From assembly GCA_019242065.1 (NCBI GenBank), contig JAFAWJ010000570.1, positions 1 through 9,061 of the forward strand: DNA of 9,061 nt. Direction: 5' to 3'. The notes under the pieces are model-generated. The model had not been told where the DNA came from. It searched no databases and saw nothing but the letters and a program-made list of their open reading frames with translations. Position 1 is the stretch's first letter. Every line of letters begins with the position of its first letter. The position numbers were made by a program, and so were the translations under genes. The stretch is from Chloroflexota bacterium. GTDB taxonomy: Bacteria > Chloroflexota > UBA6077 > CF-72. This document shows, piece by piece, positions 547 through 9,061 of this stretch.

Positions 547-1164
547 TCAGTCGGGCGAGGGGATGGCCAGGCCTTCGATCAGGGTACGCACGAGGGACCT
601 GACGAAGCGTTCGTCGGCCGCGGCCACCTCGGGCTCACCCCGCACGTGGCGCATCAACGCGCGATTCAGGCAGGCGCCGAGAAGCAGCGCGGCGGCGGCC
701 TCGGGGTCGGCCCGCGGGCTGACGCGGCCCAGGCGCTGCTCGGCGCGCAGATAGACCGCCAGCTCTTCGAGCGCGCGGTGCGGGCCGAGGTTCTTGCTGC
801 GCATGCGCTCCTGGTAGCCCTTGAGGAGCTCTGGCTCGGCGAAGAGCGAGGTGACGATGGGCAGCGTCTGGTCGTAGAAGGGCAGGGCGACGCGGGCGAT
901 GTCCTCCAGGTTGGCGCGCACGCTGCGGTGGCCGACGCGGCCGGGGAGGTCGTGCAGGGCGGCGGTGAGCTGGGGCAGGCGTTCGCCGATGACGCACAGG
1001 AACAGCTCGGCCTTGTCGGAGAAGTGGCGATAAAGGGCGGCCTCGGACAGGCCGGCGGCAGAGGCAATCTGCTTGGTCGTGGAGCGGCCGAGGCCGATGG
1101 TACGAATGACCGAGGCGGCGGCGTCCAGGATCAGGTCGCGGGTGGACACGTTCGTTCTGGCCAT
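547..1164 (-). CDS. TetR/AcrR-family transcriptional repressor
   Basis: A 205-residue protein of normal TetR size. The N-terminal DNA-binding domain spans about residues 8-55. Its helix-turn-helix at 29-48 reads TTKQIASAAGLSEAALYRHF, and the usual YxHFxxKxELF signature follows. The remaining 150 residues form the variable all-helical ligand-binding and dimerisation domain, so the inducer cannot be predicted. The start at ATG 1162-1164 gives the standard short N-terminal arm before helix 1; no Shine-Dalgarno match is visible upstream. Three palindromes sit immediately upstream, the nearest 3 bp from the start codon, which strongly suggests autorepression. The only gene downstream on the same strand is the phosphoesterase remnant. 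To the right, the next plus-strand gene begins about 500 bp away, so no divergent target gene is obvious. The regulated gene may have been lost or may lie elsewhere in the genome (inference). Confidence 0.93.
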   Translation of the reverse strand: MARTNVSTRDLILDAAASVIRTIGLGRSTTKQIASAAGLSEAALYRHFSDKAELFLCVIGERLPQLTAALHDLPGRVGHRSVRANLEDIARVALPFYDQTLPIVTSLFAEPELLKGYQERMRSKNLGPHRALEELAVYLRAEQRLGRVSPRADPEAAAALLLGACLNRALMRHVRGEPEVAAADERFVRSLVRTLIEGLAIPSPD

Positions 1165-5104: not shown

Positions 5105-6850
5105 GTGGTCCAACAACAATCTGCCCCGCCTCGACGGTCCGACGCGTGGTTTCACGACCCCGACATGTACGGCTTCGTCCGGCGCGCCTTCGCCAAAAGC
5201 ATGGGTTATGACGACCAGGACCTTGCCCGCCCCATCATTGGCATCGCCCAGACCCAGAGCGACCTCAATAACTGCAACAACAACTTCGACGAGCTGGCGG
5301 AGTACGTCAAACGCGGAGTCTGGCAAGCCGGTGGCACACCGCTGGAGTTCCCGACGATTTCTCTCGGGGAGCTCTTCATGCGGCCCACCACCATGCTGTA
5401 CCGCAACCTGATGGCGATGGACACCGAGGAGATGATCCGCGCACATCCGCTCGACGGCGTGGTCCTTCTCGGCAACTGCGACAAGACGGTCCCGGCGCAG
5501 ATGATGGGCGCGGCCAGCGCCAACGTCCCGGCGCTCATCCTGACGGGTGGTCCACACTTGAGCGGCCGTTTCCGGGGGCAGAGCCTGGGGGCGTGCTCGG
5601 ACTGTCGACGCTTCTGGACGGAGTATCGCGCGGGCACGCTGAGCGAAGCCGAGCTGGGCGAAGTCGAAGACGGGATCAATCGTTCAGATGGCCATTGCAC
5701 CGTCATGGGCACGGCCTCGACGATGGCGGCCGTGGCCGAGGCGCTCGGGTGGGCGCTGCCGCACACGGCGGCCATTCCCGCTCCGGACGCCCGCCGTCTG
5801 CGATTGGCGGAAGTGGCCGGTCGGCAGAGCGTGGCCATGGTCCGGTCGGCGATCAAACCCGGCGACTTTCTCACGCCGCGTTCCTTCGAAAATGCGATCC
5901 GCCTGATCATGGCCCTGGGCGGCTCGACCAACGCCGTCATTCACCTCACCGCGGTAGCCGGGCGACGGGCTATCCCGCTGTCGCTGGACCTGTTCGACCG
6001 TATCTCGCGCGAAACGCCGTACATCACCAACCTGCAACCCAGTGGCGAGTTTCACATGGAGCAGCTCCACGAGGCAGGTGGCGTTCCCGCCGTGATGAAA
6101 GAGCTGGCGCGGGGTGGCTTGCTCCACCTCGACGAGCGAACGATCACCGGTCAGACGCTGGGTGAGTCGCTCGAGCGGGTGCTGCCGCTCGGCGACAGCG
6201 CAGCCACCGGCACCGGCTGGTGCGGCACCGAGCGCATCATTTTTCCTCTCGAGCAACCCTTATCGTCGGATGGCGGCATCGTCGTCCTGCGCGGCAACCT
6301 CGCGCCGCAGGGCGCCGTGGTCAAACAAACGGCTGTCTCGTCGCATCTGAAAAAACATCGCGGTCGGGCACTGGTGTTCACCTCTACAGCCGACCTGGCG
6401 GCGCGGATCGACGATCCCGCGCTGGACGTCACACCGGAGACGGTGCTGGTCCTCCAGAATGCGGGACCCAAAGGCGCACCCGGGATGCCGGAGGCGGGCA
6501 GCCTGCCCATTCCCAAAAAGCTGCTCGCGGCGGGCGTGCGGGACATGCTGCGTATTTCCGATGCACGGATGAGCGGCACCGCGTTTGGAGCCGTGGTCCT
6601 CCACGTGGCACCCGAGGCAGCCGTGGGTGGTCCACTGGGACTGGTCCAGACGGGTGACTGGATCGACGTCGACCTGGACGCGCGCCGACTCCACCTGGAA
6701 GTCGACGACGACGAGCTCGGGCGCCGACGGACACGCTGGCAGCCGCCCGCCAGCTTGCGCCAGACGCGCGGCTACAGCCGGCTGTACGTCGACCACGTGC
6801 TCCAGGCGGACCAGGGCGCGGATTTCGATTTCCTGGTCGGGGGCGATTAG
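5105..6850 (+). CDS. IlvD/Edd-family dehydratase (sugar-acid or dihydroxy-acid dehydratase)
   Basis: A 581-residue iron-sulfur dehydratase, full length for the family, which removes water from 2,3-dihydroxy acids to give 2-keto acids. Family landmarks seen are Cys57 (SDLNNCNNNFDEL), Cys125 in the signature GNCDKTVPAQMMG (123-135) and Cys198 in DGHCTVMGTASTMA. These match the three cluster-ligating cysteines of the family. The second signature is DARMSGTAFGAVVLHVAPEA (486-505), in which Ser490 corresponds to the catalytic serine. The ACSDCRRFWTEYRAG segment (163-177) and the DAWFHDPDMYGFVRRAFAKS start look more like the sugar-acid branch (L-arabonate/D-xylonate-type dehydratases) than biosynthetic IlvD, and the flanking hydrolases and acid-sugar enolase-superfamily gene agree. 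The exact substrate is inferred, so no symbol is given. The start is GTG 5105; the only upstream in-frame codon block is short and closed by the hydrolase stop codon. No Shine-Dalgarno match precedes it, only an A/T-rich TTTTAAAAAAG. Confidence 0.92.
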   Translation: MVQQQSAPPRRSDAWFHDPDMYGFVRRAFAKSMGYDDQDLARPIIGIAQTQSDLNNCNNNFDELAEYVKRGVWQAGGTPLEFPTISLGELFMRPTTMLYRNLMAMDTEEMIRAHPLDGVVLLGNCDKTVPAQMMGAASANVPALILTGGPHLSGRFRGQSLGACSDCRRFWTEYRAGTLSEAELGEVEDGINRSDGHCTVMGTASTMAAVAEALGWALPHTAAIPAPDARRLRLAEVAGRQSVAMVRSAIKPGDFLTPRSFENAIRLIMALGGSTNAVIHLTAVAGRRAIPLSLDLFDRISRETPYITNLQPSGEFHMEQLHEAGGVPAVMKELARGGLLHLDERTITGQTLGESLERVLPLGDSAATGTGWCGTERIIFPLEQPLSSDGGIVVLRGNLAPQGAVVKQTAVSSHLKKHRGRALVFTSTADLAARIDDPALDVTPETVLVLQNAGPKGAPGMPEAGSLPIPKKLLAAGVRDMLRISDARMSGTAFGAVVLHVAPEAAVGGPLGLVQTGDWIDVDLDARRLHLEVDDDELGRRRTRWQPPASLRQTRGYSRLYVDHVLQADQGADFDFLVGGD

Positions 6851-6859
6851 CATTCGCCT

Positions 6860-7702
6860 ATGTCTGACTGGCTCAGCGGCGAGGTCGTGACCAACGGCAT
6901 CCGCATGCACTACCACCGCACCGGCGGCGACAAGCCCGCGCTGGTGCTCTCACACGGCGCCACTGACAACGGCCTGTGCTGGACTCGCGTGGCGCGCGTG
7001 CTCGAAGCGGATTACGACGTCGTCATGCCCGACGCCCGCGGCCACGGGCAGTCGTCTGCGCCGGACAGCGGCTATTCGAGTGCTGACCACGCCGCCGATC
7101 TGGCCGGTTTGATTCGCGCCCTCGGCTTGCAGCGGCCCGCGCTGGGCGGCCACTCGATGGGCGCTGGCACCACGCTGCGGCTGATTGCCGACGAACCCGA
7201 CCTCGCCAGCTGCGCGGTGCTGGAGGATCCGGGTCTGCGTCTGCCGAACGCGGCGCCGCTCCGTGGCCAGGCCGATCCGCGCACCAGCATCCGTCAGGTT
7301 GTGCTGGATGCACAGTGCAGTGACCTGGAGACCACCATTCGGCGCGGGCGCGAAGCCTCGCCGCTGTGGGGGGACGACGAGTGGCAGCCGTGGGCCCAGG
7401 CCAAACAGCAGCTCAGCCGCCAGTTCGTCGACACCCTCGGCAGTGGGCCGATGCCGCAGGACTGGCAGGAGCTTCTCGGGCGGGTGCGCTGCCCGGTGCT
7501 GCTGGTCACCAGCGATCCCGAGCGGGGTGGCATCGTCACACCGGAGGCGGCGCAAGTCGCCGCACGCGTTCTGCCCAGCCTGGAGGTGGTGCGCCTGCCG
7601 GGCGCGGGGCACAACATTCGACGCGAACAGTTCGACGGCTTTGTCTCAGCCGTGCGCGGGTTTCTGGCCGCACACTATCCGACCACAACGCCCGCAAGTT
7701 AG
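6860..7702 (+). CDS. Alpha/beta hydrolase (fold-1, epoxide hydrolase/haloperoxidase-like)
   Basis: A 280-residue cytoplasmic alpha/beta hydrolase. Visible landmarks are the oxyanion-hole SHGATDNG (31-38), the PDARGHGQS turn (57-65), the nucleophile elbow GGHSMGAG (96-103) with Ser99, and the C-terminal catalytic histidine His251 in LPGAGHNIRRE. The acid is probably Asp219 or Glu221 in VTSDPERGGIVTPEA (216-230). Because the nucleophile is serine and not aspartate, it is an esterase, lactonase or C-C hydrolase type and not a true epoxide hydrolase or dehalogenase. A cap domain spans about 125-205. ATG 6860 lies only 9 bp after the dehydratase stop codon, so the two are almost certainly co-transcribed; no ribosome-binding site is visible in the gap. 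A lactone- or ester-opening step in the same pathway is a reasonable inference. The tandem palindromes begin 13 bp after its stop codon. Confidence 0.9.
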   Translation: MSDWLSGEVVTNGIRMHYHRTGGDKPALVLSHGATDNGLCWTRVARVLEADYDVVMPDARGHGQSSAPDSGYSSADHAADLAGLIRALGLQRPALGGHSMGAGTTLRLIADEPDLASCAVLEDPGLRLPNAAPLRGQADPRTSIRQVVLDAQCSDLETTIRRGREASPLWGDDEWQPWAQAKQQLSRQFVDTLGSGPMPQDWQELLGRVRCPVLLVTSDPERGGIVTPEAAQVAARVLPSLEVVRLPGAGHNIRREQFDGFVSAVRGFLAAHYPTTTPAS

Positions 7703-7715
7703 TTTGTCTTTGGTA

Positions 7716-7739
7716 GGAGTCCGCGCATGCGCGGACTCC
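7716..7739. repeat. Perfect 24-bp palindrome, unit 1 of 3
   Basis: The half-site GGAGTCCGCGCA is followed directly by its exact reverse complement. Folded as a single strand it gives a 10-bp stem with a CATG loop. The centre is GCATGC. It begins 13 bp after the hydrolase stop codon. Confidence 0.95.
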
Positions 7740-7763
7740 CAGAGTGGCGCATGCGCCACTCTG
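7740..7763. repeat. Perfect 24-bp palindrome, unit 2 of 3
   Basis: The half-site CAGAGTGGCGCA is followed directly by its exact reverse complement. It abuts unit 1 with no spacer and has the same length and the same GCATGC centre, with a different stem sequence. Confidence 0.95.
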
Positions 7764-7787
7764 CCCAGCGGTGCATGCACCGCTGGG
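7764..7787. repeat. Perfect 24-bp palindrome, unit 3 of 3
   Basis: The half-site CCCAGCGGTGCA is followed directly by its exact reverse complement. It abuts unit 2 with no spacer. Aligning the three half-sites gives roughly NNNRKYSGYGCA, with the inner bases most conserved. Confidence 0.95.
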
Positions 7788-7894
7788 TGCTAACGCAACG
7801 GTCAGGGGGCTGCCGCCCCCCGCCGCCGCTCGCTTCGCTCACTCCCGCGGCGTCCCCCCGCGTACGCGCTAACCGCGCTCGGGCGGCTTGTCTG
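7788..7894. other. GC-rich convergent intergenic segment with secondary structure
   Basis: This stretch lies between the palindrome array and the end of the convergent enolase-superfamily gene and contains no gene. It holds a hairpin GGGGGC-TGCC-GCCCCC (7805-7820), a longer-range pair CGCCGC (7821-7826) with GCGGCG (7847-7852) enclosing CGCTCGCTTCGCTC, and a perfect palindrome CGCGTACGCG (7859-7868). The hexamer GCTAAC occurs at both sides (7789-7794 and 7868-7873). It may act as a bidirectional transcription end, although no T-run is present. Confidence 0.6.
7805..7820. terminator. Possible bidirectional factor-independent-like hairpin (no T-run)
   Basis: GGGGGC-TGCC-GCCCCC is a perfect 6-bp G/C stem with a four-base loop in the gap between two convergent genes. 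The absence of a following T-run on either strand makes a classical intrinsic terminator doubtful. The location is the main argument. Confidence 0.35.
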
Positions 7895-9061
7895 TTAGAG
7901 CAGCGCGCGGCCTTCGCGGACGGGATGCTCGCGCAGCACGTCCTCGACGATGTCGGCGCCCCAACCGGGGGCCGTCGGGACGAGGATCTGGCCGTTCTCG
8001 ATCGTCGGCGGGTTGCTCACCAGCTGCGTTTTCCACGGCACGTCGTCGATATCAATTTCCATAATCCGAATATTTGGCAGCGACGCGCACAGATGCACAG
8101 AGTGCAGGTCCGCCAGGTGGCTGTAGTAGTTGTGCGGCGCCACGGTGAGCTCGTAGGCGTCGGCCATCTGCCCGACGATGTGCGATTGCCCGAAGCCATT
8201 CCACGGCACGTCGATAATGGCCGTATCCGTCGCCTGGAGCTCCAGGAACGGCCGGTACTGGCGGGTGCTGACCAGGCTTTCGCACGAGGCGAGTCGTTGG
8301 GGAATCGACTGTTTGATCTGCAGCAGCGCGCGTGGATCCCAGGTGTCACATTCGATCCACTGCATGTTGAACTTCCCGAGCAATCGACCGATCTCGATCA
8401 CGCCGGCCGGACGGAAGTTGTAATTGAGGTCCAGCGCGATCTGATTGTCGCTGCCGATCCCCTGGCTGAAGGCGCCGATGAGGTTGTCGATCTGATCCAG
8501 GACATCGGAGGTCACCACGCCGTCCGTGCCGTTGAAGCCGCGGTCGAAGCCCGGGAAGTAGGTGCGAGCCGGCTCGCCCGGAATGACGATATTGGTCTTC
8601 AGCGCGTGAAAACCGCGTTCGACCACCTCGCGTCCCAGCGCGACGACGTCGTCGTAGGTGCGCAACGGAGGCAGGCCAAGCTTGTCGCCGTGGCGAGCAC
8701 GCGTCGTGCCGCAGTGCGACCAGTACAGCTGGACCCGGTCGCGCATCGGGCCCCCGAACAGCTCGTACACGGGTACGCCGAGGGCCTTGGCCTTGATGTC
8801 CCACAACGCCAGCTCGACGCCCGCGATGGCCTTGTGTGAGGTGCCTCCCAGGTTCTGACGGAAACTGCGCAGCATGTCCCAGTACAACCGCTGGACGGCG
8901 CGCGGGTCTTCGCCAATGAGCAGCGGCTCCAGGTCGCGGACGGAACCGGCGACGCCATACGGGTTGCGGCTGTCGCTGCACTCACCCCAACCCACGAGGC
9001 CGTCGTCGGTCTCGACCTTTACGAACGTCCAGGGCCGCCAGCCCGCGTCACAGTGAAATGC
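7895..9061 (-). CDS. Enolase-superfamily (mandelate racemase/muconate lactonizing type) acid-sugar dehydratase or racemase, 5' end outside window
   Basis: The frame stays open from the stop codon (7895-7897) to the right edge, giving 388 visible residues. The true start lies outside; the GTG at 8993-8995 is internal, since HCDAGWRPWTFVKVETDDGL precedes it in frame as the normal N-terminal capping domain. Counting from the window edge, GLVGWGEC is at 21-28 and the family signature AIAGVELALWDIKAKALG is at about 78-95. Barrel active-site candidates are Lys155 in ALKTN, the metal ligands Asp211 (LDLNYN), Glu237 (WIECDTW) and Glu261 (ASCESL), and His310 in APHNYYSHL. These match the Mg2+-dependent acid-sugar members, which abstract the proton alpha to a carboxylate and then usually eliminate water. 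The single Lys in a KxN context, where many members have KxK, may narrow the specificity. It converges on the hydrolase/IlvD-type cluster; a shared aldonate or related acid pathway is inferred. Confidence 0.9.
   Translation of the reverse strand, partial: AFHCDAGWRPWTFVKVETDDGLVGWGECSDSRNPYGVAGSVRDLEPLLIGEDPRAVQRLYWDMLRSFRQNLGGTSHKAIAGVELALWDIKAKALGVPVYELFGGPMRDRVQLYWSHCGTTRARHGDKLGLPPLRTYDDVVALGREVVERGFHALKTNIVIPGEPARTYFPGFDRGFNGTDGVVTSDVLDQIDNLIGAFSQGIGSDNQIALDLNYNFRPAGVIEIGRLLGKFNMQWIECDTWDPRALLQIKQSIPQRLASCESLVSTRQYRPFLELQATDTAIIDVPWNGFGQSHIVGQMADAYELTVAPHNYYSHLADLHSVHLCASLPNIRIMEIDIDDVPWKTQLVSNPPTIENGQILVPTAPGWGADIVEDVLREHPVREGRALL

Follow-up and report, generated by a model that had tools for sequence, protein, structure and literature searches.

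Triplets of perfect 24-bp palindromes as probable end modules of a dispersed intergenic element in one Chloroflexota lineage

Toward the right end of the window, by which we mean the whole 9,061-base stretch of DNA analyzed here, two genes converge on a short intergenic region. On the plus strand is an alpha/beta hydrolase gene (6860-7702; open reading frame with Pfam PF00561/PF12697), and on the minus strand is a mandelate racemase/enolase-superfamily gene (7895-9061; open reading frame with PF13378/PF02746, open at the window edge). The hydrolase stop codon precedes a T-rich leader (7703-7715, plus strand, with TTTGG at 7709-7713), delimited by comparison with arrays in the genome G152 and sites in the genome G168. 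Next come three palindromes, for which no strand is assigned: H1, the outer unit (7716-7739); H2, the middle unit (7740-7763); and H3, the inner unit (7764-7787). They are followed by a GC-rich inner module (7788-7879, plus strand), recognized by blastn similarity to contigs C245, C23, C101, and C469 of G152. The initial annotation placed the array 13 bp past a gene end and between convergent genes, which agrees with the TAG at 7700-7702 and the convergent open reading frame end at 7895.

The genomes G168, G152, and G240 are Chloroflexota genomes within one class, from which 29 genomes were compared. The protein encoded by the window dehydratase gene (5105-6850) is 91% identical to its counterpart in G168, 86% in G152, and 81% in G240. 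The corresponding region of G168 holds both the dehydratase and the enolase, each 91% identical to the window genes; no match to a hydrolase gene was found in the interval, and the enolase 3' end has no array. Elsewhere in the window, a TetR-family regulator gene (547-1164, minus strand) is preceded, 23 bp upstream of its start, by two overlapping perfect 14-bp palindromes (1188-1211, 24 bp in total), which are likely its operator. A 33-base stretch at 1339-1371 is 97% identical to G168 contig C6 (L060 15338-15369) and is probably another dispersed repeat.

The initial annotation is correct in that each of H1, H2, and H3 is a perfect palindrome of 24 bp centered on GCATGC, and that the units abut with zero spacer. 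They are the only perfect palindromes of at least 18 bp in the window. The H1 type occurs also in G152 and G168, the place of H2 in the array is matched in G152, and the identical 24 bases of H3 are found in G168 contig C90. From base composition, a window of this size is expected to hold 0.002 single 24-bp palindromes and 1.4e-16 triplets in the phase of the array. This expectation, together with related copies in two further genomes, upholds the earlier statement that the array is very unlikely to be due to chance. When folded as a single strand, positions 7700-7800 form three 10-bp stems with CATG loops, with stability z-scores of -6.9 as RNA and -8.1 as DNA; in both cases, none of 200 shuffles was equally stable. 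Rfam gave zero matches across the window. Between 7600 and 8000 we found no promoter-like site and, on either strand, no terminator-like site (a GC-rich hairpin plus T run), so the proposal of a multi-hairpin RNA end is not supported if it is read as an intrinsic terminator.

The element in the window exceeds the triplet, since positions ~7716-7879 are similar to dispersed copies elsewhere. A blastn search with window 7700-7900 against the 29 class genomes returned seven long matches, all in G152, at 74-79% identity (E 3e-34 to 4e-19); the matches in G168 and G240 were shorter. Some match at E ≤10 was found in 28 of the 29 genomes, and matches below 0.005 occurred only in these three. The G152 copies share the window plan of palindromes, with other stems, followed by a GC-rich inner module. 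We built a covariance model of the triplet (R1) and searched the class genomes at a threshold of E 0.01. Two of the 29 matched; because palindromes match on both strands, the 45 matches in G152 collapse to 23 places and the 6 in G168 to 5. Over 400 genomes of the phylum, G152 and G168 alone matched R1, though this run was a stricter first look that scored only 12 candidates per genome, and its zeros are therefore weak. A search with a pattern of the outermost palindrome, which is free of the 12-candidate limit, gave 21 matches in G152, 9 in G168, and 0 in the other 398 Chloroflexota, and its reversed control gave 0. The check for copies in relatives that had been suggested at the outset was thus positive, in G152 and G168. 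Copies are sparse, with a single array, at a contig end, in 405,530 unselected bases of G152; the same bases held five palindromes of at least 18 bp, versus seven in a shuffle. The evidence comes from the sequences of the window and of two fragmented draft genomes (G152 and G168), all of one lineage.

Searches farther afield were less productive. When we searched for three GCATGC spaced 24 bp apart, the matches were in 2 of the 400 Chloroflexota genomes, both at plain tandem repeats, and at 23 stretches in viral contigs. The 22 viral stretches listed look like coding sequence or plain tandem repeats, except for one group of related contigs (L011 4198-4285, L013 8494-8581, and L014 3396-3483). 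This group has tandem CATG-centered repeats with a perfect GAGACAACGCATGCGTTGTCTC palindrome at the end and further AGACAAGGCATGCCTTGTCT-type palindromes elsewhere, and it matches the model weakly (E 0.04). The viral contigs gave 0 matches to a 27-mer from the window and to two unit patterns. A plasmid search returned 6 records with 10-13% query coverage and E of about 10, and a stricter pattern that included the inner module had two matches, both unrelated.

In G152, three copies are complete: both of their ends carry a triplet, in inverted order, and their length is about 350-380 bp. These are in C412 (381 bp between outer edges), at C23 4449-4799 (351 bp), and at C23 6370-6726 (357 bp, with one mismatch in each of two units). 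Complete copies have a GC-rich middle and the borders TTTGGnn...nnCCAAA or near; the open reading frame rule predicts no gene inside the C412 copy. In the C368, C220, and C23 (2000-2241) copies, both ends bear palindromes, with fewer or broken units at one of them, and the window copy consists of one triplet and one inner module without the far-end triplet, as do those in C245, C101, and C469. In 21 of 30 arrays, the 12 bases that immediately precede the outer palindrome include TTGG. The T-rich leader precedes most G152 arrays and probably belongs to the element, because it is missing from two G168 sites that lack the element.

There are two triplet types, one followed by the window-type inner module and the other by a module whose first bases read approximately TTGGCACGCCGC. 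The window-type module is also found without palindromes (L119-L121 and L123 in G240, L109 in G152, and L118 in G168), and the second-type module is found without triplets in G168 and G240. Since both modules occur without triplets, the element is a mosaic in which the triplets are modules. Several units are hybrids, in which the left half of one unit is joined at CATG to the right half of another (H1/H3 in L057; H2/H3 in L112 and C368), which suggests deletion between CATG centers. We inspected the flanks by eye and saw no consistent target-site duplication, and a search with a whole copy for a parent transposon gave no longer element among the matches listed. We abandoned the idea that insertion duplicates a target palindrome, since in each of the three complete G152 copies the outer palindrome at one end is unlike that at the other; in the G168 C325 copy, the two ends agree. 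Elements of several hundred bases with long inverted GC-rich hairpin ends occur on contigs C353 of G168 (L220 and L223) and C424 of G240 (L236). They contain the second-type inner module and lack palindrome triplets, and the left end of L220 carries direct repeats of 36 bp. In other Chloroflexota, perfect palindromes of 60 bp (L041 2463-2522, G001) and 52 bp (L046 398-449, G333) lie near hydrolase/dehydratase genes.

By a simple open reading frame rule, the arrays are mostly intergenic. In 18 of 30 arrays, a stop codon precedes the outer end by 3-20 bp; in the other 12, the 25 bp before the outer end contain no predicted stop. Among random intergenic points, 177 of 2,269 (7.8%) fall within 25 bp after a stop (p 8e-13 versus the arrays), in a single control run with gene positions from the same simple rule. 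In G152 contig C54, the end of a further array (L191 1501-1677) and the 3' end of a tRNA-Met gene are 31 bp apart, and the short hairpin with a T run between them looks like the terminator of the tRNA gene.

A more detailed view comes from a branched-chain amino-acid-type ABC transporter operon (by Pfam) on G152 contig C23, which holds three elements: one after the binding-protein gene, one separating the second permease gene from an ATPase gene, and one after the last ATPase gene. The G168 counterpart of this operon is 79-83% identical. At the last two sites, G152 has 379 and 381 bases versus 30 and 2 in G168, and at the first site, about 240 bp in G152 compare with one near-perfect palindrome in G168. 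At the second site, the G168 genes overlap (TGATGA). The start region of the ATPase gene reads MSELLQAKSIVKRFGG in G152, MTDLLVAQKVTKRFGG in G168, and MAELLVARGISKRFGG in G240. In G152, the ATG at the center of the outer palindrome (L105 4776-4799) is the probable start codon of the ATPase gene, and GGAG of the same palindrome is 7 bases upstream of it. The element would thus affect adjoining genes, with a palindrome supplying the probable start codon of a transporter gene in one operon. Where G152 and G168 differ, loss instead of insertion could be the cause, and some copies predate the split between the two, as shown by the single hairpin of G168 at one site. Complete copies, proximity to stop codons, and these site differences support the initial comparison with REP/BIME-like or MITE-like structures, in both architecture and place.

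The two arms of each palindrome have changed together. We aligned 12 arrays, 11 of G152 and that of the window (alignment A5), leaving out L105_2167, with its broken outer unit, and L139, which is cut by a contig end. Standard pairs fill 358 of the 360 cells, and the other two are unpaired. Changes on both sides were seen at least once in 22 of the 30 pairs, with 78 cells being double changes, and the 360 cells include a single one-sided change, a G-U; the rows are related, which means that the cells are not independent events. When partners were slid by 1-3 columns as a control, pairing was reduced to 34.8-42.5%; of 500 shuffles, none attained any of the values observed. These changes on both arms bear out the early suggestion of selection for palindromes or a mechanism that generates them.

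A wider census covered units at 31 places, omitting C80 and C477 of G152 and C82, C139, and C246 of G168. It yielded 74 units, 45 of them distinct, with Watson-Crick pairs at 720 of 740 arm positions, under a cut-off (at least 7 of 10 arm pairs) that itself favors paired cells. The misfits were 2 G-T, 7 A-C, and 11 other, and 62 of the 74 units were perfect in all ten arm pairs. Three-unit arrays occupy 17 of the 22 listed G152 places. CATG is at the center of 71 of the 74 units, with GCATGC (35), TCATGA (24), and ACATGT (11) as the main forms. The shared GCATGC core described at first therefore holds in the window but not across the family, where it is one center form among several. With 45 distinct units among 74, an array of dimeric-protein sites, read as a site of fixed sequence, is likewise not borne out. 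Because G-U is nearly absent and G-T is not in excess over A-C, the data favor DNA-level constraint or copying over RNA stems. The palindromes vary in sequence yet stay symmetrical, which points to an action on DNA shape and not on sequence.

How else might such arrays be explained? Chance or an assembly artefact has a next to negligible probability: one G152 array does sit at a contig end, and contig C23 begins inside another copy, but the common plan recurs with different stems and flanks in three separately assembled sequences, and chance, with an expected number of about 1e-16, is refuted by the copies. It is unlikely that the palindromes act mainly as RNA hairpins at the 3' ends of mRNAs, blocking exonucleases or forming the end itself as has been suggested for REP sequences, and that selection on the host genes maintains them. 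The 18 of 30 arrays placed 3-20 bp behind stop codons, the very stable RNA fold (z -6.9), and the setting of the window array between convergent genes would all suit such a role. However, RNA stems tolerate G-U, and we count one G-U in 360 cells and two G-T versus seven A-C misfits in 740; moreover, arrays also face gene starts within an operon, the G168 genes do without arrays, and the window array is without a terminator-like site.

Neutral palindromes, symmetrical solely through template-switch correction and with neither function nor mobility, strike us as quite unlikely. Strict Watson-Crick symmetry, with 62 of 74 units perfect, is what this reading has in its favor, as are the template-switch correction of quasipalindromes reported in E. 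coli (PMC7202029) and the conversion mechanism proposed, on an all-or-none argument, for the perfect palindromes of nematomorph mitochondria (PMC6649704). However, it leaves unexplained the constant 24-bp length, CATG in 71 of 74 centers, the ordered triplets at both ends, and the place behind stop codons. Membership in the GTAG/CGTC REP super-families moved by RAYT was taken up because GTAG adjoins H1 in the window, and REPs, as short extragenic palindromes, have been reported in Chloroflexi too (PMC3733652). We dropped it, and now consider it very improbable, after finding GTAG next to the outer palindrome in just 1 of 30 arrays, namely, that of the window. The RAYT family (Y1 transposase, PF01797) had 0 matches in G152 and G168, drafts that may be incomplete. 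PF01797 matched in 9 of the 29 class genomes, with one match in G240, and on reading 1.6 kb around that G240 Y1 gene, we noticed no array. The one G-U cell also sets the element apart from GTAG families, for which frequent GT pairing is reported (Di Nocera et al. 2013, PMC3733652).

Altogether, dispersed copies with a common plan and other stems support the reading of the triplet as an end module. We consider it probable that the triplet forms the end module of a dispersed, non-autonomous element that lies between genes in one Chloroflexota lineage and behaves in a REP/BIME/MITE-like way, with arms kept symmetrical at the DNA level. Such an element would move, or would have moved, with help in trans. 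Its hairpins, with a 10-bp stem and a CATG apex, would form in single-stranded or cruciform DNA and be recognized by shape and apex. Selection on the hairpin, template-switch copying between the arms, or both would preserve symmetry at the DNA level, and slippage or recombination between CATG centers would delete units, leaving single hairpins and hybrids. We expect that selection acts besides copying, because copying alone fails to explain the constant length, the CATG center, and the ordered triplets. An additional effect of the element on mRNA 3' ends is possible. The element holds only its unit length, its symmetry, and four central bases, while the stems vary widely. It is tempting to go further and see here a mobile repeat class whose shape is inherited: ordered triplets of 24-bp hairpins with a CATG apex, recognized by a non-RAYT enzyme irrespective of stem sequence, continually re-perfected by hairpin-templated copying, and exchanging at CATG. 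We put this forward tentatively, as a doubtful extension. Because many stems of the same length coexist in one genome, structure selection and arm copying as means of palindrome upkeep can be tested by strain comparison.

Among palindromic repeats of bacteria, the best described are classified by a conserved tag together with a RAYT transposase. BIMEs have two inverted palindromic ends around a spacer, with compensatory changes, clusters, and proposed non-autonomous mobility, and MITEs are non-coding, shorter than 400 bp, with inverted ends, and absent at some orthologous sites. Judged by its sequence, our element is a REP/BIME/MITE-like variant outside the REP super-families, which behaves like REP, REPIN/BIME, and MITE. 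It is not filed as a REP, because a GTAG tag is not a feature of its arrays and no RAYT was detectable. Our literature search found no title or abstract on CATG-centered palindrome triplets. Like MITEs, the element has inverted triplets, TTTGG/CCAAA-like borders, and no gene predicted inside C412. Unlike MITEs, its terminal repeats are themselves palindromes, a parent transposon was not found, and no target duplication was established. The small dispersed repeats of Nostoc, described by Elhai et al. in 2008, reportedly have a similar unit size, a hairpin, and compensatory changes, and are said to have been proposed as mobile. They may be the nearest analogue in unit size, though they come from a different phylum. 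One of them, SDR5, is mentioned in another study (PMC4390886). Compared with the GTAG/CGTC REPs, which are described as palindromes of 20-40 bp, found mostly outside genes and often flanked by convergent or unidirectional ones, arranged in groups or inverted pairs, and with complementary changes in their stems (PMC3733652), the element is similar in having repeated, mostly intergenic 24-bp units. It differs from the REPs of that account in having no GTAG tag (1 of 30 arrays), no RAYT found, hardly any G-U, ordered triplets, one fixed length, and a CATG center. With REPINs, it shares two inverted palindromic ends and a spacer, seen in the complete copies, as well as compensatory changes, clusters, and proposed non-autonomous mobility (Bertels and Rainey 2011, PMC3116915). 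Unlike REPINs as presented there, and with RAYT not found, each end of the element is a triplet of different palindromes, and these ends are conserved in shape rather than in sequence.
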